Shown here: positions 4,960 through 42,187 of the stretch, one piece after another
How positions within the stretch are numbered: position 1 is the stretch's first letter
How the letters are laid out: every line of letters begins with the position of its first letter
IMG/VR virus record: IMGVR_UViG_3300044796_000232
Span: 1 to 42,187 of that record
DNA: 42,187 bases
Reading direction: 5' to 3' (one strand)
Origin: a virus
Made by a program: the position numbers and the translations under genes
The notes under the pieces: generated by a model
What the model was told of the DNA's origin: nothing
The model's database searches: none
Seen by the model: the letters and a program-made list of their open reading frames with translations, nothing else

Positions 4960-5975
4960 CCGAACCCCAGGACAGAGTGAAAGTCCACGTAGATGCTCAC
5001 CTGCTCCACGTAGGCAGCCGATGGGACCTGAATGAGCAACCCTGTGTTGCTGTCCAGCGCATCCTTGTACGTTACCCAGAGATAATCCCAGGCAGACTTG
5101 TAGGGGACTATCAGTGTGGGGCTGACCTGAATGTTGGTCCTGTTCTCGCCTACCATGAACTTGTGAGTGACACTACCGGTCTCCGGGGGCTTGATGGTGC
5201 CCGGGGCCCCGGTGTACATCACCTCACCTGGCTGAAAGCCCATCCAGGCGTTCAGGTTGATCTTGCCCACCAGCGATCGCCAGGCCCGGAGCATGGGCAG
5301 GTTGACGTAGGAATACTGAGCAAGTATTGATCCCTCAAACTTCGGGGCGAACACGTCGCAGCCGGCGATGGAATCGCGACTGACGCCGATTGCCTGGTGG
5401 AAGTTCGGGGCCTGGAGACTGATTGGCGTGTCGGCCCCCTGGTAGGCCCACACGCACGATCCATCATTGATCGCTCCACCCATCCCCGTTGGGCCGCCCG
5501 ACGCCGCCGATGTCCCGGGCGTCGTGCATTTGTACACGTTGCCCGCATTGATTACGAGCGCCAGGATCAGATACGCGGTCGATGGTGTCCACGCGGGCGT
5601 GGTCTGACCGTCTACCCGGGCGATCAGGGTCTTCAGAGACTGCGTGATGTGGACCTGGCCAGCGCTCAGGTCCCACGAATACTGGGGCCCCAGGTTGGTC
5701 GAGTCGTCCGGGGTCTCCTCGCTCTGGGGTTGCTGGTTCTCCGCGCTGAAGCTGTACTCCACCGTGCAGAGCCAGACCCCGCCACCCTGTGGATCGGCCT
5801 TGATGCTATTGATGGGCAGGTTGTCGTAATAGACAGACGAGAGTGATACCAGACCGTTATAAACCGCCGTCTCATCGCTGGAGAACATGGCGATGTACTG
5901 AATCGCCACGCTCGCGCTATTGACCGATCGCGTGATCGGTCGAGACTTTGCCAGTTCGTAGAAGTTCAACGCCAT
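4956..5975 (-). CDS. Putative tail-tip (baseplate-like) protein with carbohydrate-binding-like insert
   Basis: A 339-residue protein directly downstream of the tape measure gene, the usual place for a distal-tail or tail-tip protein. I do not recognise the full-length family. A segment at about residues 128-180 (WTPSTAYLILALVINAGNVY, then YKCTTPGTS and a final VWAYQG) looks like the small aromatic carbohydrate-binding repeats inserted into many tail and chitinase-type proteins. The remainder is beta-rich with a well-packed C-terminus (YVDFHSVLGFG). The stop overlaps the next ATG by 4 bases. A role in adsorption or in assembling the tail tip is inferred. Confidence 0.6.
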   Translation of the reverse strand: MALNFYELAKSRPITRSVNSASVAIQYIAMFSSDETAVYNGLVSLSSVYYDNLPINSIKADPQGGGVWLCTVEYSFSAENQQPQSEETPDDSTNLGPQYSWDLSAGQVHITQSLKTLIARVDGQTTPAWTPSTAYLILALVINAGNVYKCTTPGTSAASGGPTGMGGAINDGSCVWAYQGADTPISLQAPNFHQAIGVSRDSIAGCDVFAPKFEGSILAQYSYVNLPMLRAWRSLVGKINLNAWMGFQPGEVMYTGAPGTIKPPETGSVTHKFMVGENRTNIQVSPTLIVPYKSAWDYLWVTYKDALDSNTGLLIQVPSAAYVEQVSIYVDFHSVLGFG

Positions 5976-12158: not shown

Positions 12159-12259
12159 CAGAAGCTGACAGCTATCAGCTATCAGCAGAACCATGAAACC
12201 TGTGGTCACACGCCCGCATGTGGATTGTCTGGCTGATCGCTGATAGCTGTCAGCTTCTG
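12159..12259. repeat. Long inverted repeat between capsid and decoration genes
   Basis: Two perfect 21-base arms (12159-12179, containing GAAGCTGACAGCTATCAG, and 12239-12259) are separated by 59 bases, with a further short ATCAGC/GCTGAT pair inside. In minus-strand mRNA this forms a strong hairpin 7 bases after the capsid stop and 12 bases before the decoration start. There is no U-run, so rather than a simple terminator it may be an mRNA processing or stability element that sets relative levels of the two abundant proteins. Confidence 0.7.
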
Positions 12260-12266
12260 AAATCTC

Positions 12267-14756
12267 TCACGCACCTGGCGACTTAACACCAGCGCGGAAG
12301 TTCTGGGCGTTGGCTCCGTAATCGAAGATCACCCGCATCGCGACGCCCAGCTTCTTGAAGTTCCAGTCGGGGCCGGCCGTCTGCACGGTCGGGGTGTCTA
12401 TACCGTTCAGGAACGCGGCCTCGATCACGGACGAGCCGGCGACGGGGGACATGAGGTTGTACCAGGCCGTGGCCGAAGCCGTGGCCGGGAACAGGGTCGC
12501 GTTGCTCAGGTAGCGACTCATCACCGGCTTCAGTCGACCCTTCCACATGTTGATGTTGGGCTGCCGGCTGGTCGTTCCGGTGCCAGCCCCAAGAACGAGC
12601 CCGACCGCGGCCGGGTCGACCAGCTCCATCGCGGTCAGCCACAGTTCCGGCGGGAACAGCAGGATTGGCGTCATACCGTCAAACATCAGCGGGTTACCGC
12701 TGGGGTCGACCTGCTTGTCGTACATCTGTTTGGCGAGCTGCAACGCCGTGGACGACAGAGCCGAGGAGGCCCCGGAGCCGAGCAGGTTGGGGCCGCTGGC
12801 CACCTGGAGAGTCGGGAAACTGGTCGGGGCTGCCGCACGCCAGAAGGCGTTGCCATCGTCGGCCGTCGCACTGGCGAGAGCCAGATAGACCTTCCAAAAC
12901 AGCAGGTTAAACCCACGGCTGGCCCCCGCGCCCATCGTCAACGGTGCGCCGGTCAGAATCGAGAGGTCATCGTTGATGATCGGCTTGCGACCAATCGTGA
13001 GCATCAGGCCGTACTGATCGACCTGGTTGGCGAATGCCTGGTCGGTGATCGTCCCTTCCTGGAGGTCGCCACTGTCTGGCACCTGCTGCACGACAGTGTT
13101 GCCGATCAGGTTGATTGACTTGGTCGGCTTGAAGTCGTTGGTGGGCCGAATCATGGCGATCTCACGCCATGCCTGCTCCACCTGGAGGTAACCGACCAGC
13201 GCGAACTTGTTCTGCACGTTGGCGAGCGTGTTGGGCAGATAGGAGTCTGCCACGCCTTCGGCCCGGATCGTGAACCGCCCCATGTCATTGCAGCCGAACC
13301 GCAACACCTCCTCAATGTTGCCGTCCGTGATCTTGTCGGAGCCCATATACCCGTGCATCCGGGCCCCGAGAACCAGGAGTTGCTGGAGCCCCACCTGGCC
13401 GCGGAAGTGGGTGTGTGCGGCCTGGCGGACCTGGTCCGGGTATCGTTCCTTCAGCTCGGCCCGGATGCGCTGCTCCATGTTCGCCTGGATACGGCGCGTC
13501 TTGAATTCGTGGTCCTTGTAGAAGTCGTCGTTCTCCAGGTGGAACTGGTGTCGGCCCGCGTCCAGGACCGCATACTCCAGGACCTGGGGAGTGACCTCCG
13601 GAGTGCTGCCAAAGTGGAAGTGTCCACCGGCCACCATTCCCGCGCCCGTACCCGGGCCCGGTCGAGAGGATCGGAGTGCGACCAGCTCGGCGTCACGGGC
13701 CGACCAGCCGGCCTCGATCGCGTGGGTGGCGAAGTCGACCTTCTTGCCCTCGTGGACGATCTGATCGAGTTTGTACTCCTTGGCCAGGGCCGTGATCCTG
13801 TTGACCCGCTTGAGTTCCTTGACCGTCTCGGCCCGGACCTCCTGGCGAGCCTGTTTGGCAGCACTGATCTTCTTGGGCACGTTGGTCTTCACGGCCTTCC
13901 CCTTGAGTTTGGTGCCGCCCCCGGCCTTGAGTTTCTTTCCGCCCTTCGACGCCTTGGCAGGTGGATTGTCTTCGTCGTCCTCCTCCTCTTCCTCGCCCTC
14001 GGTCTCCGAGTCCTCGTCTTCCGCCTCGGCCTCCTCTTCGTCCTCGGCCTCCGTCTCCGAATCGTCCTCGCCCTTCATGCACTCCTTGAGGGCCGTCTTG
14101 GCTTCGTCGTCGGTCATCTTGTCGATCTGCTCATCACTGTACTTGGCAGCAGTGAGCCCCTGCATACGAGCGAGTTTCAGGGCGGCTTTCTCAAACATGA
14201 TGAACTTCCCCTTGGAGCCTGTGACGGTTGCCGAGGTGTCCCCGTCGGCTCCCAATGGAACGAACGAAACTTCTCCCAACTCGGTCTCATGACTGATCGT
14301 CATGGGCCCGGTGACCGTCCGGCCGTTGACCTCGGCCTCTTCCCCGGCCTCCAGGAAGGAGGTTCGCACCGGGTTGGCCCCGATGCTCATTTGCCAGGGG
14401 AACCCGTTGGCGGCGGGCGTGGCGACCTTGTCCACGTGCTGCTGCTCGCCGGACAGGGGGCCTTCCACGTGGATGCCCTGCTCGTCAACCGCCACCTTGT
14501 CGGTGTGCCCGACGATCTGTTCGTGATCGTGCTGTCGGAGCGCGGGCTTGTGCTGGCTGCCGACCTTCACGCCGTTCAGGTCGACAACGATCCGGCCCCA
14601 CCAGCCCTCCGGCCGCATCGGGGCGCCGCTGTACGCCAGGCCCGAGAACCGTTTGAGCTTCGGGCCGTCGCCCGTCTCCGGGGCCGCGGTGATGGTGGCC
14701 TTGGTGCCGCCCGCGGCCCGAAACTCTCTCGGAGTGTCGCGTTTGTCAGACGGCAT
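12267..14756 (-). CDS. Prohead protease-scaffold-major capsid fusion protein
   Basis: A single 829-residue frame joining roles that are usually two or three genes. Residues about 30-185 look like a prohead protease: a histidine site RQHDHEQIVG (His76/His78), a WQMSIG serine motif (Ser124) and ISHETELGEVSFVPLGA near 154-170. Residues 228-265 are extremely acidic (Asp/Glu runs), then a Lys-rich stretch; this resembles a scaffold or delta domain. From about 385 to the end the sequence looks like a major capsid protein (GRFTIRAEGVADSYLPNTLA; AMIRPTNDFKPTKSINLIG; MLTIGRKPIINDDLS), similar in feel to Mu gpT-type capsids. Self-cleavage would have to release the capsid part. The ATG overlaps the portal stop by 11 bases. 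No separate capsid gene exists elsewhere. Confidence 0.8.
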   Translation of the reverse strand: MPSDKRDTPREFRAAGGTKATITAAPETGDGPKLKRFSGLAYSGAPMRPEGWWGRIVVDLNGVKVGSQHKPALRQHDHEQIVGHTDKVAVDEQGIHVEGPLSGEQQHVDKVATPAANGFPWQMSIGANPVRTSFLEAGEEAEVNGRTVTGPMTISHETELGEVSFVPLGADGDTSATVTGSKGKFIMFEKAALKLARMQGLTAAKYSDEQIDKMTDDEAKTALKECMKGEDDSETEAEDEEEAEAEDEDSETEGEEEEEDDEDNPPAKASKGGKKLKAGGGTKLKGKAVKTNVPKKISAAKQARQEVRAETVKELKRVNRITALAKEYKLDQIVHEGKKVDFATHAIEAGWSARDAELVALRSSRPGPGTGAGMVAGGHFHFGSTPEVTPQVLEYAVLDAGRHQFHLENDDFYKDHEFKTRRIQANMEQRIRAELKERYPDQVRQAAHTHFRGQVGLQQLLVLGARMHGYMGSDKITDGNIEEVLRFGCNDMGRFTIRAEGVADSYLPNTLANVQNKFALVGYLQVEQAWREIAMIRPTNDFKPTKSINLIGNTVVQQVPDSGDLQEGTITDQAFANQVDQYGLMLTIGRKPIINDDLSILTGAPLTMGAGASRGFNLLFWKVYLALASATADDGNAFWRAAAPTSFPTLQVASGPNLLGSGASSALSSTALQLAKQMYDKQVDPSGNPLMFDGMTPILLFPPELWLTAMELVDPAAVGLVLGAGTGTTSRQPNINMWKGRLKPVMSRYLSNATLFPATASATAWYNLMSPVAGSSVIEAAFLNGIDTPTVQTAGPDWNFKKLGVAMRVIFDYGANAQNFRAGVKSPGA

Positions 14757-16218
14757 TCGCGGCCTCCGGTTTGGCGTCTTCCTGCTCGGTCACCGTGCGT
14801 TTGACCACATCGCCAAACGTCAGCTTGAGCCGATCGATCTCCGCCTTCTCCGCGGCCTGCTGCGCCATCACCGACTTCCAGTCGTAACCGCGCCGCGCCC
14901 AGAATGCCTGCCAGGTGTCCATCCCGCCAGCCAGGCGATCGGCGTCCGCCTTGGCTTCCACCGCCGGGTCGAGAGGTTCCCACCCGGACCAGTGCCAGTC
15001 GTGTGGCGGCAGGTTCAGCCCGTCATAGGCTCGTATCCGTCCGACCAATACCGCCTCCTGATACCACGCCTTGAACAGACGGGCCAGGACGTACTTTTCC
15101 GCCTGCGATCGTTCAATCGTGAGCATCGCCCGATAGTTGACGATGTCGAGTTTGGACGAACTGAAATTGAACTTCTGACTTGTCCCCAGTGCCAGATTGA
15201 GCGGATACGATAACGGCCGGATCGCTTCGCCCAGGCACTTTTCCTGAAACATCTCGTACGTGGTTGCCGGGTGCGCTGCGGCCAGTTGCTTCAGGGTCAT
15301 GCCGCTCGGGAGCATGACCTGCATTTTCCGCTGGATGGGCACACCCACGAACGGGGACATTCCCGCTCCGTCGGGCACGGGAACCAGGGAGGTGTCCTGA
15401 CTGGCCGGGGCCTCGCTCTCCAGGACCGCGGCGTAATCGGCCGCGATCTCGGCCGCCCCCAGAGTCGCCTTCCGGAACGCTCTCAGTTCCGTGAACAGAT
15501 CGAGCGAGGGCGTGAAGATCGGCACACCACGCACTTGCCCGGGCCTGAACTTCGGGAACCAGTGGATCATGTACCGGGCCGGTATCTTGTCCACCGCCAG
15601 CGGGTTGAGGTCCGGGAAATACAGGTCCCCGGGGTGGTGGCGGAGGACGTGGTAGTGCGTCGGCCGCTGCGTCACCGGGTGGAGGGTCAGGCCATCCACC
15701 CACAGGTCCGCCAGGTTGGCGGGCGCGGGTGTGGTGACCTGGTCAGCCTCCAGATCGCACGGGTACAACTTGACCTCGTTCTCCAGGTCCTCGACCGTCT
15801 TGAGGACCAGGAACCCCTCGCCGTCCACGGACCGGGCCAGTTTGCACGTTCGCAGTTTCTCGACCAGGTCGACCTCGTCGGCCCACTCTCGCCAGGCCGA
15901 CTCGACCTCCAGGTTGTACTGTGCGTCCGAGGTCGAGAGCTTCAGCGTCGGGCCGGTGCCGACCAGATCGTCCGCGTTGTTGTTGCACACTCCCCACAGG
16001 AACGGGTTGTTGCTGACCTCGTAACGCGAACGGATGCGCAGAGTTCTACGCACCTGGTAGTTGTTGGCAGATTTCGGCGAGAAATAATCTGCCATCCACC
16101 ACTGGCGACTCTGCTCCCGATCGGTCTGGGCGTTGTCGTATCGAGCCCGGATGGACGCCGCGGACGGGCCGGTCCGTCGCTGGCCTCCGTAGAACCGGGC
16201 TGATGCGAGAGCGACCAT
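14746..16218 (-). CDS. Portal protein (lambda-type)
   Basis: 490 residues, close to the usual length of lambda-family portals. The N-terminal region has the characteristic RYDNAQTDREQSRQWW and LRIRSRYEVSNNPFLWGVCN, then DLVGTGPTLKL; later PARYMIHWFPKFRPGQVRGV and FRKATLGAAEIAADYAAVLE are typical portal motifs. The portal forms the twelve-subunit ring at one vertex, is the docking site for terminase, and leads into the tail. The ATG at 16218 shares one base with the upstream stop; a GTG one codon earlier is also possible. It lies directly before the protease-capsid fusion, the standard order. Confidence 0.9.
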   Translation of the reverse strand: MVALASARFYGGQRRTGPSAASIRARYDNAQTDREQSRQWWMADYFSPKSANNYQVRRTLRIRSRYEVSNNPFLWGVCNNNADDLVGTGPTLKLSTSDAQYNLEVESAWREWADEVDLVEKLRTCKLARSVDGEGFLVLKTVEDLENEVKLYPCDLEADQVTTPAPANLADLWVDGLTLHPVTQRPTHYHVLRHHPGDLYFPDLNPLAVDKIPARYMIHWFPKFRPGQVRGVPIFTPSLDLFTELRAFRKATLGAAEIAADYAAVLESEAPASQDTSLVPVPDGAGMSPFVGVPIQRKMQVMLPSGMTLKQLAAAHPATTYEMFQEKCLGEAIRPLSYPLNLALGTSQKFNFSSSKLDIVNYRAMLTIERSQAEKYVLARLFKAWYQEAVLVGRIRAYDGLNLPPHDWHWSGWEPLDPAVEAKADADRLAGGMDTWQAFWARRGYDWKSVMAQQAAEKAEIDRLKLTFGDVVKRTVTEQEDAKPEAANAV

Positions 16219-16478
16219 CACGCGGTCCTTGCTGCGGTCTCAGGGGCTGGCTCGAACGGCTTGTCAACGCCCAGGATCTGGGGCTGGAGGGGGTCACCGA
16301 ATGTGAGCTGGCGAGCCCACACCTGGCCTGTCCAGAGGGCCTTGATCCGCTCCCACCAGGTCATCCGCCAGCATGTGACGATGATCCCCTCCGGGGAGCG
16401 ATGGGCGGGCAGGGGTTGATACTCGGGCTGATCCTTGCCGAGGATCGTGTTCACTTCCGGAAATGCTACCGGTGACAC
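16218..16478 (-). CDS. Small unknown head-module protein
   Basis: 86 residues: an N-terminal loop region, then SPEGIIVTCWRMTWWERIKA, aromatic and basic, then a Pro-rich tail. Start chosen at GTG 16478 because a near-perfect ribosome site (GGAGGGTGAT) lies immediately upstream; a longer frame would extend through the CRISPR-like repeat and is unlikely. The gene overlaps the portal start by one base. No family recognised. The leader of this gene is exactly the stretch occupied by the CRISPR-like unit. Confidence 0.5.
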   Translation of the reverse strand: MSPVAFPEVNTILGKDQPEYQPLPAHRSPEGIIVTCWRMTWWERIKALWTGQVWARQLTFGDPLQPQILGVDKPFEPAPETAARTA

Positions 16479-16488
16479 ATCACCCTCC

Positions 16489-16596
16489 ACTTCAATTCGG
16501 CCACGGCTGTGCAGCCGTGGAGATGCGAGCAATCATCCGGGTGGGCGGATCGTTCACCACGCTTCAATTCGGCCACGGCTGCACAGCCGTGGAGAT
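16489..16596 (-). CRISPR. Two-repeat, one-spacer CRISPR-like mini-array, no cas genes nearby
   Basis: Two 36-base repeats lie at 16489-16524 and 16561-16596, separated by a 36-base spacer (16525-16560). The copies differ at two central positions and at the last base. Each contains a palindrome whose arms are CCACGGCTG and CAGCCGTGG. Read on the minus strand each begins ATCTCCACGG and ends ATTGAAGC or ATTGAAGT, the kind of 3' handle found on many type I/III repeats. The unit fits exactly between the stop of the gene at 16601 and the ribosome site of the gene at 16218-16478, in the leader of a late transcript. No cas gene is in the window, so processing would need host enzymes. Two copies is the minimum for a call; this could still be a chance duplicated hairpin. 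Confidence 0.7.
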
Positions 16597-16600
16597 CACA

Positions 16601-16855
16601 TCAACCACCAAAGTTGTCGTTCAGGTAGTCGTAAGGCCCAATGTTTCGCCCCGGGCCGGCTGCGGGAGTCACCAGCGTGCTGGCGTATATTCCCCGGAGC
16701 GGGTTGCCCGCCGCAGCCTTCATCGCCAGATAGCGATCCATCTTGATGAGGTCGTCGGCGGATCGGCCCGTGGCGCTCTGACCGTCGCTGGTGGACGCGA
16801 TAGGCAGACCGGCTTCAGTCTGAATGATCCCGCTGAGGTCTGGGGCTGTGGCCAT
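16601..16855 (-). CDS. gpW-like small head protein
   Basis: 84 residues starting at ATG 16855 with GAGGTG about 7 bases upstream. The sequence ...LPIASTSDGQSATGRSADDL then IKMDRYLAMKAAAGNP has a pattern (DG motif, then a helix with D..R.L..K) reminiscent of the small gpW family found between terminase and portal in lambda-like phages, where it closes the head and serves tail attachment. The location fits. Similarity is weak, so treat the family as a hypothesis. The C-terminus is Gly/Asn-rich. Confidence 0.45.
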   Translation of the reverse strand: MATAPDLSGIIQTEAGLPIASTSDGQSATGRSADDLIKMDRYLAMKAAAGNPLRGIYASTLVTPAAGPGRNIGPYDYLNDNFGG

Positions 16856-16953
16856 CGCTGGACACCTCGCGACTGGGCGTACACCCATTTATCGCGTGGC
16901 GACTGGCGAATGGAAGCGGTTGACGTGCAGATAGTTGGTCGAGCGTATAGGCC

Positions 16954-17514: not shown

Positions 17515-17709
17515 TCAAGTTTTGAGGTCGGTGCGGGGGAGAGTCCGGAGCGGCGTGGGAGGGCCGCCACGGAGTTGTTTGCGACGCTCGGCGATCCGAC
17601 GCTGTTCGGCAGGACTATCCGGTCGATAACAGCAGTCACCGGGACGACACCCATCCTGGCGGTACGGCCAGTCGCAGATCGGGCACCTGTTTTGTCGTTG
17701 ATCGCTCAT
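17515..17709 (-). CDS. Small cysteine-rich (zinc-binding) protein
   Basis: 64 residues beginning MSDQRQNRCPICDWPYRQDG followed by CRPGDCC, giving a probable four- or five-cysteine zinc site, then a basic helix (AEQRRIAERRKQLRGG). The ATG overlaps the terminase stop by 4 bases, so expression is coupled. Nucleic-acid binding is likely from the zinc knuckle and basic tail; specific role unknown. Confidence 0.55.
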   Translation of the reverse strand: MSDQRQNRCPICDWPYRQDGCRPGDCCYRPDSPAEQRRIAERRKQLRGGPPTPLRTLPRTDLKT

Positions 17710-19847
17710 GTCACTCCCTGCGCTCGGTTGTAAAGGTCCATAGGCGATATGATCTTCCTCGCTCTCTTCACCTCCGGCTGACCGGCCGCGGCCCCCGCCG
17801 ACCAGCTCAGTCCCGAGACCGAGGCAGCGACCGCACACCCGACCAGGCAGTCCCAGAGGTGATTGTCTCGACCAGGCCGGAGCTTCCACTCCTCGACCGC
17901 CCGGCCGCCGACCCTGGCCACCTCGACCGGATACTCCGACGTCCAGTGGTCGGCGAGCATCCTGTGTTGGTCAGCCTCACCCTTGAAGATCCGCAGGCAG
18001 CCGGCCGCGCCGGGCGGCGTCTTGATCCGCTCGGCTGCGAAGGTCTTCCACCAGTTGGCATCGAACACCACATGCCGGCCGCGGCCGGCAGTGCCAGGTG
18101 GTGACAGCCGCCACCCCGTACCAGCTCGCTCCCCTGGTCGCTTCGCCCATGATGCCATCGGGTTGCTCGACGCGCCGATGAACTTCCCGTGTGAGGGGAT
18201 CAAGCTACCAGCCAGCGGGGACCGCCGACAGAACTCGTACACCAGGTCGGTCAGCGGCCCATAATTGGCATCGACAAGGCACCGCTCGGCCCGCAGCTCG
18301 GCCCCGGTCTCTTCCTGGCGGAACACGCCAAGGGCCCGGCTGGTGGCCACGCCCAGGCCCTCGTACACCGCGGCGTCCTGGCTCTTGCCCGGATAGAGGT
18401 CCTCCAGGGCCGGGCGAGGATCGGCCCCGGAGAAGTACGATCGTGTCTGCTCTGGCCACGTCCCCCACTGGACCAGGTCGCCACCGAACCGCTCATCCCA
18501 GGCGATCACTGTCCACCAGAGGATGTGGGCCCCGACGTCCACGAAGGCGCTCAGGCGGGTGGAGGCCCTCGGCACGATCAGGCGGGGCAGGTTCGAGACC
18601 TTGGCAATCACCTGCTCGGGCGTCAGTGCCGTGGCCGAGGCCGTGTCCCGGGACAGGGGGGTGTTCTGGTACTCGGCCATGAAGGTAGCCGGATCACGGA
18701 AGTACAGGTGCATGGCACTCTGCACCGCGGAGACCTCCCATTTCTCCTTCCGGTCGGGCCAGCTTGCCTCGGCCCCTGCGTCCAGCTCGGCCTGGTGAGC
18801 CCGATAGTACGCGATCGCCTCGGAGTGGTCCGGGGGCTCCATCTGGGCCCCACGGGAGTAGACCTCGAAGTACCGGTCCCAGGCTGCCATGTCGGTCGGC
18901 ATTGATCGCATCATCCCGGACCGTTCACCACGCCACATCGGGTGCTTGCTGCGGTCCAGGACCTGGTCGATCATGTCGCCGCGTTCGATCACCGTGCAGG
19001 GCATCACGCCAGCGATCGCCCGACCAGGGCCGGCCATGCCGAGGACGTCGGCCATGATGAGCGACAGCCGACTCTCGTTCTGGGTCAGTGATCGGGCCGA
19101 CTCGTGAGTCTGGGGATCGTCGATCAACACGAGGTCCGGGCGGATCTGCTCGCCCGTGGTCAGGGTCAGCAGCGACCCACGGATGCCCTCACCGGTGAGC
19201 CCCGAGGCAGCGATCACGGCCCCGGACGACGGGACCTTGCCATCGTCCCGGAGCTTCCACCCCCGGCCCTTCTGCCAACCCTCGGGCGGGGGAACGGTCG
19301 GGAGGGTGATCTGGTTACCTGCCCACTCGATCATGGTGGGCTCACCACCGCACGTCTGGCCGCCAGCTCGCTGGGCAATGCCCTGGAGCTTCCGGGCCGG
19401 AACTGCGATCTCGGGGAAGTCGGCCCCGTACTCGGGCAGGAACCGGATGAACATCCGGATCGCGTCCAGGGTGGCCGTGGCCTTGGTGTCCGTTGCCCCG
19501 ATCAGGAACACGTACCGGACCAGGGCGTACGACACCGCCCACAGGGCCGCCATCCGACAGATCGCCGACTTCCCACTCCCCCGCGCCATGGCAAAAGCGT
19601 ACAGGGCGCCGAGGGTGGCCGCCTCCTCGATCCGGGCAATGGCCTTCAGGTGGTCATCGCTCCAGCCGAGGTTGAAGGCGCGGGGGTTGTACGTCTCACA
19701 AAAGACCTTCAGAGATTTCCGGCAGCGGTTGCGGCGTCGCGGGTTGGCGATCGCCGGGAGTGCGCCGATCTCGCGACCCGCCGCGGACCGGTCGCTGGCG
19801 ATCTTCGCAAGACGCTCACGTTCTCCGTCATACTCGCCAGTCGCCAT
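17706..19847 (-). CDS. Terminase large subunit (gpA-like)
   Basis: 713 residues. The ATPase half carries the Walker A motif ARGSGKS (about 88-94) and Walker B LVLIDDP (239-245). The nuclease half shows the expected aspartates in SAFVDVG (D437), CLVDANYGP (D526) and RDNHLWDCLVG (D661/D666). The combination, with DNHLWDC, a lambda-type portal and a gpW-like gene, points to the gpA family, whose members cut the concatemer and drive DNA into the prohead. First gene of the long late operon; start ATG at 19847, one codon after a TTG, with a poor ribosome site. No small terminase gene was recognised next to it. Confidence 0.9.
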   Translation of the reverse strand: MATGEYDGERERLAKIASDRSAAGREIGALPAIANPRRRNRCRKSLKVFCETYNPRAFNLGWSDDHLKAIARIEEAATLGALYAFAMARGSGKSAICRMAALWAVSYALVRYVFLIGATDTKATATLDAIRMFIRFLPEYGADFPEIAVPARKLQGIAQRAGGQTCGGEPTMIEWAGNQITLPTVPPPEGWQKGRGWKLRDDGKVPSSGAVIAASGLTGEGIRGSLLTLTTGEQIRPDLVLIDDPQTHESARSLTQNESRLSLIMADVLGMAGPGRAIAGVMPCTVIERGDMIDQVLDRSKHPMWRGERSGMMRSMPTDMAAWDRYFEVYSRGAQMEPPDHSEAIAYYRAHQAELDAGAEASWPDRKEKWEVSAVQSAMHLYFRDPATFMAEYQNTPLSRDTASATALTPEQVIAKVSNLPRLIVPRASTRLSAFVDVGAHILWWTVIAWDERFGGDLVQWGTWPEQTRSYFSGADPRPALEDLYPGKSQDAAVYEGLGVATSRALGVFRQEETGAELRAERCLVDANYGPLTDLVYEFCRRSPLAGSLIPSHGKFIGASSNPMASWAKRPGERAGTGWRLSPPGTAGRGRHVVFDANWWKTFAAERIKTPPGAAGCLRIFKGEADQHRMLADHWTSEYPVEVARVGGRAVEEWKLRPGRDNHLWDCLVGCAVAASVSGLSWSAGAAAGQPEVKRARKIISPMDLYNRAQGVT

Positions 19848-19962
19848 CAAACAAATCCATCAGTTAGTAAGTGTGTCATGGATGCTGACTGTTCCCGCGT
19901 GAGTCATTAGAGGCATAGGGGTGCTGGAAGGACCCAAAAAACAAGGCTTCAAAGAGAATCGT

Positions 19963-20774: not shown

Positions 20775-21016
20775 TGGGTCCTCGCACCAATTACCGAGAC
20801 CTCTCCAAAGAGCCGCCATTTGGCAGGCTGAAGGCCATTGAGGATACGGGCGATCGGACGACAGGTGGACACGTGATCTGGCTGTGTAAATGCCGTTGCA
20901 AGAGGAAAGTCAAGGTCGTGTCAATCAATCTTACATCCGGCAACACCCGCTCGTGTGGGTGCTACCGGAAGGAGTCGAGCTATGCAACCGGCGGGAGCAG
21001 GACGGGGAAGGTTTAG
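20774..21016 (+). CDS. AP2/HNH-associated-type DNA-binding small protein
   Basis: 80 residues starting at ATG 20774, which shares its first base with the upstream stop. The sequence PPFGRLKAIEDTGDRTTGGH then VIWLCKCRCKRKVKVVSINL, ending SGNTRSCGCYRKES, follows the pattern FGRL.vI......G...W.C.C.CG......nL.sGnt.SCGC found in many phage proteins, often at the N-terminus of AP2- or HNH-containing proteins. Here it stands alone. DNA binding is likely; no nuclease domain is attached. Followed directly by a repeat element. Confidence 0.6.
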   Translation: MGPRTNYRDLSKEPPFGRLKAIEDTGDRTTGGHVIWLCKCRCKRKVKVVSINLTSGNTRSCGCYRKESSYATGGSRTGKV

Positions 21017-21109
21017 GTTGTCACAGTTGTCACCCGAGTCACCCATGTCACCTGGTTCCTGAGAAGGGGTATCTTGTCTCCTTCCCTGGCCTGGGGTGAC
21101 ATGGGTGCC
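21017..21109 (+). repeat. Hairpin/iteron repeat element, copy 1
   Basis: A 42-base block (21017-21058) contains four 9-base units with a GTCAC core. It is identical to the inverse of copy 2 and matches copy 3 at 42 of 43 positions. An inverted partner (GGTGACATGGGTG at 21095-21107) pairs with 21040-21052 to give a 15-base-class stem with a 42-base loop. The element sits between the convergent 3' ends of the early operon and the integrase remnant. Confidence 0.75.
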
Positions 21110-22214: not shown

Positions 22215-22478
22215 ATGCCCGTGAGACGTCCCAAATCGGAGATCGTGCAAGCTGTCGCGCGCCTGGAACAAGAGGGCCTCATCCCACTGGAAGAGGGAGC
22301 GACCAGGTTGGGGGTGGGCTTCCGTACTGCCAGGCGGTGGGCGATCGAGGGGAAGAAGGGTCACCACCTGGACGCATTCCACCGACCGGGTGTCGGCTGG
22401 CTGACCTCCCTTGCAGCGATTGAGAGGTTCCAGGCCCCCGACGGCGCGGCCAGTTGTCACCCATGTCACCCCGGATGA
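22215..22478 (+). CDS. DUF1580-like HTH protein
   Basis: 87 residues: LIPLEEGATRLGVGFRTARR, then WAIEGKKGHHLDAFHRPGVG and WLTSLAAIERFQ. The arrangement (LIPLEEA..lp....t..RW...G..G..L...R.G.....TS..A..RF) is that of DUF1580, a short HTH family common in planctomycetes. It may act as a Cro/excisionase-type partner of the divergent repressor. The last ten codons lie inside repeat copy 2, so the C-terminal ASCHPCHPG is repeat-encoded. Confidence 0.6.
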   Translation: MPVRRPKSEIVQAVARLEQEGLIPLEEGATRLGVGFRTARRWAIEGKKGHHLDAFHRPGVGWLTSLAAIERFQAPDGAASCHPCHPG

Positions 22479-22547
22479 GGGACCTCTCCAAAATCTTACT
22501 TTTCAGAACCAGGTGACATGGGTGACTCGGGTGACAACTGTGACAAC
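22451..22547 (-). repeat. Hairpin/iteron repeat element, copy 2 (inverted)
   Basis: The 42 bases at 22506-22547 are the exact reverse complement of the block in copy 1. A short partner (CAGTTGTCACCCATGTCACC at 22451-22470) pairs with 22512-22526 to give a 15-base stem and 41-base loop. As with copy 1 it lies between two convergent 3' ends (DUF1580-like gene and the zinc-ribbon membrane protein gene). Confidence 0.75.
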
Positions 22548-31164: not shown

Positions 31165-31224
31165 GGGGGCTTTCGGGTGCCGGTTGTCACAGTTGTCACC
31201 CGTGTCACCCATGTCACCTGGTTC
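31144..31224 (+). repeat. Hairpin/iteron repeat element, copy 3
   Basis: The block 31182-31224 differs from copy 1 at one base in 43. An inverted partner at 31144-31158 lies inside the 3' end of the primase gene and pairs with 31204-31218 (15 bases). The order of arms differs from copies 1 and 2: here the iterons fall in the loop. The location just after the primase is attractive for a replication origin. Confidence 0.7.
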
Positions 31225-31257
31225 TGAACTGAGAGAATCTGTAGCCGGGGCGCGCCC

Positions 31258-41577: not shown

Positions 41578-42155
41578 GCGCGAACACTCCAGCAGTGAGG
41601 GCAGATCGGGTCGGAACAATCGTCCGACCCGAAGAACGCATTGACGGCCTTGACTACGGACGAATAGGGATCACGCACGTAGTCGTGTCCGGCGATCAGG
41701 CCATTTGGTTTGAGCTTCGGGAACCAGGCTTCCAGATCGGCCAGGACCGCGGCCTCGTTGTGGTTCGCATCAATGAAGATGAAATCCACAGTCCCATCGG
41801 CGAACAACTCGGCGGCGACGATGGAGGGCAAGATCAGGGGGCGTACGAACGGGTAGAGCCCGCAGTGATCGAGGTTGGAAACCAGGTGGCCTGCTATATT
41901 CCCCCCTGCAAGGTCGACCACTGGTCGAAGTGTGTTGGCGTCGCTCCCGGTGGGCGTCCCGAACCCGTGGTCGATCGCGTAGACCACGGCCTGTCCCTTT
42001 CCGAGCCGCTTCATCTCCGAGGCCAGGAACGCGACCGATCGGCCGAGCCAGCAGCCGACCTCGACGGCCACGGCCCCGCGCTCCGGGAGCCGTGCAGCGG
42101 CGTGGGTGTAAAGTGCCTCGAAGTCGCAGAACCCGGGGATGTCAGACCACAACAC
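41574..42155 (-). CDS. Class I SAM methyltransferase (Methyltransf_24-like)
   Basis: 193 residues; GTG 42155 with GGAGGG 6 bases ahead. Motif I VEVGCWLGRS (31-40), acidic end of strand 2 YAIDHG (Asp62), FIFIDANH (125-132) and GLIAGHDYV (152-160) match the family often paired with sugar biosynthesis and glycan modification. The C-terminus has a CPHC motif. Start lies inside the terminal repeat; on the circle it overlaps the GT25 gene by 14 bases. Substrate probably a sugar or a glycan, by context. Confidence 0.8.
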   Translation of the reverse strand: MLWSDIPGFCDFEALYTHAAARLPERGAVAVEVGCWLGRSVAFLASEMKRLGKGQAVVYAIDHGFGTPTGSDANTLRPVVDLAGGNIAGHLVSNLDHCGLYPFVRPLILPSIVAAELFADGTVDFIFIDANHNEAAVLADLEAWFPKLKPNGLIAGHDYVRDPYSSVVKAVNAFFGSDDCSDPICPHCWSVRA

Positions 42156-42187
42156 AGGCGGCCCTCCATCGTTCCAGGCACTCCCCC
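42061..42187. repeat. Terminal direct repeat, right copy
   Basis: Exact copy of 1-127; see the left copy. Confidence 0.9.

Follow-up and report, generated by a model that had tools for sequence, protein, structure and literature searches.

A candidate leaderless type I-G CRISPR mini-array in the head-gene block of a putative planctomycete phage, with possible repeat-less guide units in other phages

A viral record of 42,187 bases, analysed here over its whole length, carries between its terminase and portal genes a short intergenic element in which two hairpin-forming repeats enclose a single spacer. Because this record has a 127-bp direct terminal repeat (1-127 and 42061-42187), it is probably a complete phage genome. 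What such an element does among head genes is the question raised by this locus: does it supply a guide to Cas proteins of the host, act as a decoy for them, serve as a switch in the late message, or is it a fragment of a host array or an ordinary hairpin?

Virus-borne mini-CRISPR arrays were described in SPV1 and SPV2 (Medvedeva et al. 2019, PMC6858448; review PMC11656645). Like the phage element, arrays of this type have one or two spacers, repeats of the host class and no cas genes, and are intergenic. In contrast to them, the phage array relates to planctomycete type I-G rather than Sulfolobales CRISPR, is leaderless, and is located in a head-gene block; a leaderless form has been reported for mini-arrays of bacterial phages. 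As far as we searched, the cas-less viral mini-array is a known kind, and its type I-G and planctomycete-phage setting is new.

Architecture and genomic setting of the array

The initial annotation had described two 36-nt repeats with palindromic arms and handles around a 36-nt spacer, read in the late direction. The coordinates (16489-16596) were confirmed, as was the direction, head genes and crRNA sharing the minus strand. On this strand, the upstream repeat (16561-16596; plus-strand GCTTCAATTCGGCCACGGCTGCACAGCCGTGGAGAT, crRNA sense ATCTCCACGGCTGTGCAGCCGTGGCCGAATTGAAGC) reads ATCT-CCACGGCT-GTGC-AGCCGTGG-CCGA-ATTGAAGC and is followed by the spacer (16525-16560; crRNA sense GTGGTGAACGATCCGCCCACCCGGATGATTGCTCGC) and then by the downstream repeat (16489-16524; plus-strand ACTTCAATTCGGCCACGGCTGTGCAGCCGTGGAGAT), which reads ATCT-CCACGGCT-GCAC-AGCCGTGG-CCGA-ATTGAAGT and has a degenerate last base. 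Placed 72 nt apart, the repeats are identical at 33 of 36 positions and differ in two loop bases and the outermost base. The upstream hairpin (16573-16592, minus strand) has an 8-bp stem and a 4-nt loop, GTGC in the crRNA sense; the 20-nt palindromic core of the downstream repeat (16501-16520, minus strand) is its exact reverse complement, with 100% complementarity.

Folding of the array RNA gave a z-score of -5.5, none of 200 shuffled sequences being as stable. Taken alone, this RNA is predicted to adopt one long cross-repeat stem instead of two hairpins, a model structure that could hinder processing. Nowhere else in the 42 kb of the phage does a hairpin stem of at least 5 bp lie before an ATTGAAR motif at the distance typical of type I-G. 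Given the uniqueness of this geometry and the fold z-score, the chance hairpin that the initial annotation had left open was rejected. An ordinary duplicated hairpin or terminator would fit the strong GC-rich stems, and yet has next to no probability: it is already contradicted by the lack of a T-run and of any terminator-like site, and by the true CRISPR arrays that the same class of 36-mers makes elsewhere.

The array had also been said to fill exactly the gap between two head genes. The 108-nt unit does fill the intergenic gap (16479-16600, 122 nt), but its neighbours are two small ORFs. Upstream lies a 95-aa ORF (16601-16888), which in related phages and prophages has homologues immediately before the portal gene, and downstream an 86-aa ORF (16218-16478, GTG start at 16478) with homologues on L114 and L121. 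Both are located between terminase and portal; the large terminase subunit TerL (17706-19850) and the portal protein (14746-16221) are encoded just beyond them, and a prohead protease/major capsid fusion at 12267-14756, all on the minus strand. A Shine-Dalgarno-like GGAGG (16484-16488, minus strand) directly follows the downstream repeat, and no promoter- or terminator-like site was scored in the array region. The absence of cas genes proposed earlier held among the ORFs scanned: Pfam, PHROGs and PADLOC gave no Cas match among the larger phage ORFs, the small ones being partly covered.

The GGAGG motif right after the second handle, together with a gap filled by the array in head-gene direction, might also suit a cis-acting Cas sensor. 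Here Csb2 would cut the late message at the repeats, so that the 86-aa ORF and portal would be separated from the genes before them, and the array would tune late gene expression to the Cas state of the host. We regard such a switch as improbable, as it leaves a spacer of exact host length unexplained and relatives manage without any array.

Other repeated structures are found in this genome. An inverted repeat of 28 nt (96%), whose loop measures 45 nt, lies at 12159-12259 in the gap between the tail-fibre and capsid genes, and 9-nt GTGTCACCC-like iterons, running in either orientation, are clustered at 21015-21058, 22451-22547 and 31181-31244. These iterons are possibly replication or regulatory sites.

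Relationship to planctomycete type I-G systems and proposed function

In type I-G systems, the PAM is TTN, and cleavage by Csb2 4 nt 3' of the repeat stem leaves an 8-nt handle (PMC9638904). Both phage repeats fit this rule, with a hairpin, four nucleotides (CCGA) and an 8-nt ATTGAAGC/T. When 84,980 species genomes were scanned with a pattern in which the repeat flanks were fixed and the loop left free, 12 stretches were retrieved, all in planctomycete MAGs (entitled Gemmataceae, Gemmata, Singulisphaera, Planctomycetota or Planctomycetaceae). Most of them are arrays of 36-nt repeats with a 72-73-nt period, and two are single matches at contig edges. A second scan of 398 genomes of the class also revealed the phage-type repeat with various loops. 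Repeat loops differ between planctomycete genomes (GGTGAA, TGTGGA, TTCATA, TGCGGA) and the flanks are constant; the phage loops, TGTGCA and TGCACA, fit this pattern and match no host loop exactly in the genomes examined. Overall, the phage repeats are identical to planctomycete repeats at 31-34 of 36 positions (32-34 for the upstream repeat), and at 33-34 of 36 to those of the nearest genuine arrays. While the repeats of virus-borne mini-arrays were reported to be identical to those of the host (PMC11656645), none identical to the phage repeats was detected in the genomes examined, the nearest (L016) differing at 2-3 of 36 positions.

In CAMAUE010000014 (L015/L006), the array adjoins a type I-G operon comprising Cas3g, Cas8g2, Csb1/Cas7g, Csb2, Cas4/1 and Cas2, and Csb2 is present in 8 of the 9 genomes having the repeat class of the phage. 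Spacers of host arrays are mostly 36-37 nt long, so that the 36-nt phage spacer has a host-like length. The type I-G (formerly I-U) arrays of Gemmataceae/Isosphaeraceae resemble that of the phage in their 36-nt repeat, period, handle and hairpin, and differ from it in being long, in their near-identical repeats and in the location of at least one beside a cas operon. The search for similar repeats in CRISPR loci advised by the initial annotation led in this way to long planctomycete arrays, one beside a type I-G operon, and its guess of a planctomycete host held; the closest repeat arrays are those of Gemmataceae/Isosphaeraceae planctomycetes. Judged by sequence, the phage repeats are true CRISPR repeats of the type I-G class. 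A singleton repeat in genome G258 (L022) was considered as a prophage element and set aside, since it resembles the remnant of an array and lies near a recombinase.

With a probability of about 0.7, we interpret this locus as a leaderless, single-spacer type I-G mini-array that would be transcribed late and whose transcript host Csb2 would turn into a single crRNA directed against competitor DNA. This interpretation builds on the repeat class, geometry and orientation documented here, on the finding of no cas gene among the ORFs scanned and on the gain of the array relative to related phages (see below). The carrier would be a phage of Gemmataceae/Isosphaeraceae-like planctomycetes, and the minus strand of the array would be transcribed within the late (terminase-portal-capsid) message. 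Host Csb2, a Cas5-Cas6 fusion, would recognise both hairpins and cut 4 nt downstream of each stem; in the upstream repeat, the predicted cut falls just before the handle ATTGAAGC (16561-16568, minus strand), as deduced from the sequence and the type I-G rule (PMC9638904). These cuts would release a single 72-nt crRNA (predicted mature form 16497-16568, minus strand) made of the 8-nt handle, the 36-nt spacer and a 28-nt 3' part with the hairpin. Loaded onto the host type I-G Cascade, this crRNA would direct host Cas3 to DNA bearing a TTN PAM. Most probably this DNA would be that of a related phage or prophage in competition with the carrier (superinfection exclusion). Since no target was found for the phage spacer, this last step is proposed by analogy with elements of the same kind. 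The array thereby points to the host system involved and provides a precise, testable crRNA prediction. With it, cas-less viral mini-arrays are now also represented in I-G, the type I subtype that has been studied least, and in planctomycete phages.

Alternatively, the array might act as an RNA anti-CRISPR, its repeats being decoys that titrate Csb2/Csb1 into useless complexes, whatever the spacer sequence. Inhibition of Cas proteins by solitary phage repeats mimicking those of the host is experimentally established, and the phage array shares with such Racr units the features of a phage-encoded host-repeat mimic without cas genes. A decoy would also be consistent with loops differing from every host repeat seen and with the lack of a protospacer in the IMG/VR 20-mer and 22-mer scans. 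However, Racr candidates are by definition solitary, with no associated repeat (Camara-Wilpert et al. 2023, PMC10651486), whereas the phage has two repeats at host-like spacing around a host-length spacer, and the handle is intact on the crRNA-forming side, so that a complete crRNA is expected. A decoy role is thus unlikely.

Gain of the array and search for its target

Portal homologues were found in 42 of 249 planctomycete genomes and on 13 IMG/VR contigs, the portals of the latter being 57-62% identical to that of the phage. No such array was observed near the portal gene in the homologous loci read, either in planctomycete genomes or in IMG/VR relatives. In L121, which has homologues of both flanking genes, the stop of the 95-aa ORF and the start of the small ORF are 7 nt apart, versus 122 nt in the phage. 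Because the relatives read lack the array and these genes nearly abut in L121, the array is a gain, as opposed to a structural hairpin conserved in the head operon. Comparison of the interval in related phages, recommended by the initial annotation, thus revealed no conserved, fixed hairpin.

One planctomycete prophage, in genome G133, has both a portal 39% identical to that of the phage and an independent 3-repeat/2-spacer array of the same repeat class (L057, about 5060-5290; G133 contig 6), which lies at the end of the prophage, with a tRNA cluster about 1.6 kb away. The type I-G csb2 genes of G133 are on other contigs, and no cas gene was evident by eye among the ORFs flanking the array. 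Since the first G133 repeat carries two compensated stem pair changes, selection on the hairpin is suggested. This bears on whether the phage array could be a non-functional scrap of a host array acquired by recombination, as the missing leader or promoter, the missing target and a last repeat base degenerate as at array ends might indicate. Such an origin has little probability given that both hairpins, the handles and the spacing are intact, that the insertion is precisely intergenic with both genes undamaged, and that compensated stems were kept in the related prophage.

Searches for a protospacer yielded no convincing match for the mini-array spacer, whether in IMG/VR (scans with 20-mers and 22-mers of the spacer), among phages and plasmids (BLAST), or in the phage genome itself (at the DNA and peptide levels) and 14 relatives. 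A single partial IMG/VR match (22/36) falls in a gene with a VGGSFTT motif, and the exact repeat pair had no match in IMG/VR. An antisense-portal peptide match (GERSAHPDDCS/GSRGSHPDQCQ) beat 30-40 shuffles but was discarded, as it corresponds to 19/36 at the DNA level and is off the portal frame. Conversely, the best match to the phage among 187 host spacers is 15 nt long, which is chance level.

Several other arrays were noted in the course of this survey. A G133 spacer peptide, EWIETLEKGFHG, resembles EWIRDLEIGLHG of its own phage, but not beyond all shuffles. L004 has a two-repeat array at a viral contig end (1-108), upstream of terminase and portal-like genes, and on L105, a 7-kb viral contig, a thirty-repeat array (26-2400) directly adjoins phage head-tail genes.

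Guide-like units in other phages

Viral contigs with a similar repeat architecture were collected by pattern scans and 31 spacers were extracted. Six of these are 69-79% identical to a sequence within 1 kb in their own phage, the best of 904 spacer/locus swaps reaching 66%. At the DNA or peptide level, the spacer is a diverged copy of a nearby sequence in L060, L071, L081, L084, L099, L104, L108 (both units), L111 and L063. Often the DNA mismatches with the own gene affect the third base of a codon, and the peptides are in agreement, as for the L108 spacer and the major head protein of its phage (QNAKELLGLQIAA/QKAKELLGLQIAE), and for L104 (DWMCRQDFEPDTL/DWMLRQDFEQDTL) and L099 (YAHDDDRLD/YAHDDDGLD). 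In L081, whose repeat resembles that of the phage array (CCACGGC stem, CCGAATTGAAGC end), 25 consecutive PAM-distal bases agree with the own gene, whereas most of the 11-12 PAM-proximal bases and the PAM disagree. In L060, L084 and both L108 units, a TTN stands before the copy in the carrier's own genome. Guides directed against relatives that leave their carrier unharmed would be expected to bear such marks, which lend support to interviral targeting by elements of this kind. A report cited in PMC6858448 had already described the targeting of adjacent genes in close relatives by mini-array spacers, and the resemblance of spacers to adjacent genes is a confirmation of that report, not a discovery.

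A second category has no repeat at all. These permuted units consist of a single 3' hairpin arm, CCNN, an ATTGAAG handle, a 35-43-nt spacer and a single 5' arm. Fifteen were identified on 14 distinct viral loci (L072, L073, L076, L079/L084, L086, L090, L095, L097, L108 with two units, L109, L111, L060/L064/L088, L071 and L074), or 13 loci without L074, which has the weakest stem. In each unit the two arms can pair over 10-24 bp, in some cases with a single mismatch; outside the pattern-fixed columns, own arms give 143 paired positions in total, against 128 for the best of 20,000 re-pairings. Although gaps of 25-55 nt were allowed, those observed are 37-43 nt, except for one 27-nt locus found twice. 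Formally, such a unit is a crRNA opened in its hairpin loop and closed through its spacer, and from geometry and PAM only we infer that it belongs to subtype I-G.

Neighbours of the permuted units include terminase, portal, major head and structural genes. The relatives L086 and L095 each have a unit in the terminase-portal interval, with different spacers, and on the two sides of it their portals are 91% and their terminases 56% identical; judging from these values, the jump is an abrupt recombination boundary. Several units adjoin a gene whose diverged homologue is the apparent target, and, if true, this placement would be that of a homing or marker-exclusion element. The predicted fold of the phage array, a long stem with the spacer in the loop, has the topology of these units because each of its repeats is, over 20 nt, the exact reverse complement of the other. 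We tentatively propose, at somewhat less than even odds, that phages have, as a second form of CRISPR guide gene, one without repeats, and that the phage array is structurally on the way to it. If true, such units, having no direct repeat, would be missed by repeat-based CRISPR finders and would have nothing to recombine away. Since some guide-only weapons have no repeat at all, they may be commoner in phages than repeat-based searches suggest. In the open literature, subscription journals and preprints apart, we found no permuted or split crRNA genes, and these units may be a class of phage guide gene that has yet to be described.

Pseudomonadota plasmids also carry arrays of the CCTCATTGAAGC repeat class. 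No cas genes were seen near plasmid arrays with the proteobacterial-type repeat CCNCATTGAAGC, and a survey of 59 genomes from the planctomycete phylum detected no array of this repeat. A two-repeat array with an CCTCATTGAAGC/AC ending lies near a transposase on a plasmid of Azospirillum thermophilum (L159, 10001-10107), and no cas gene is nearby.
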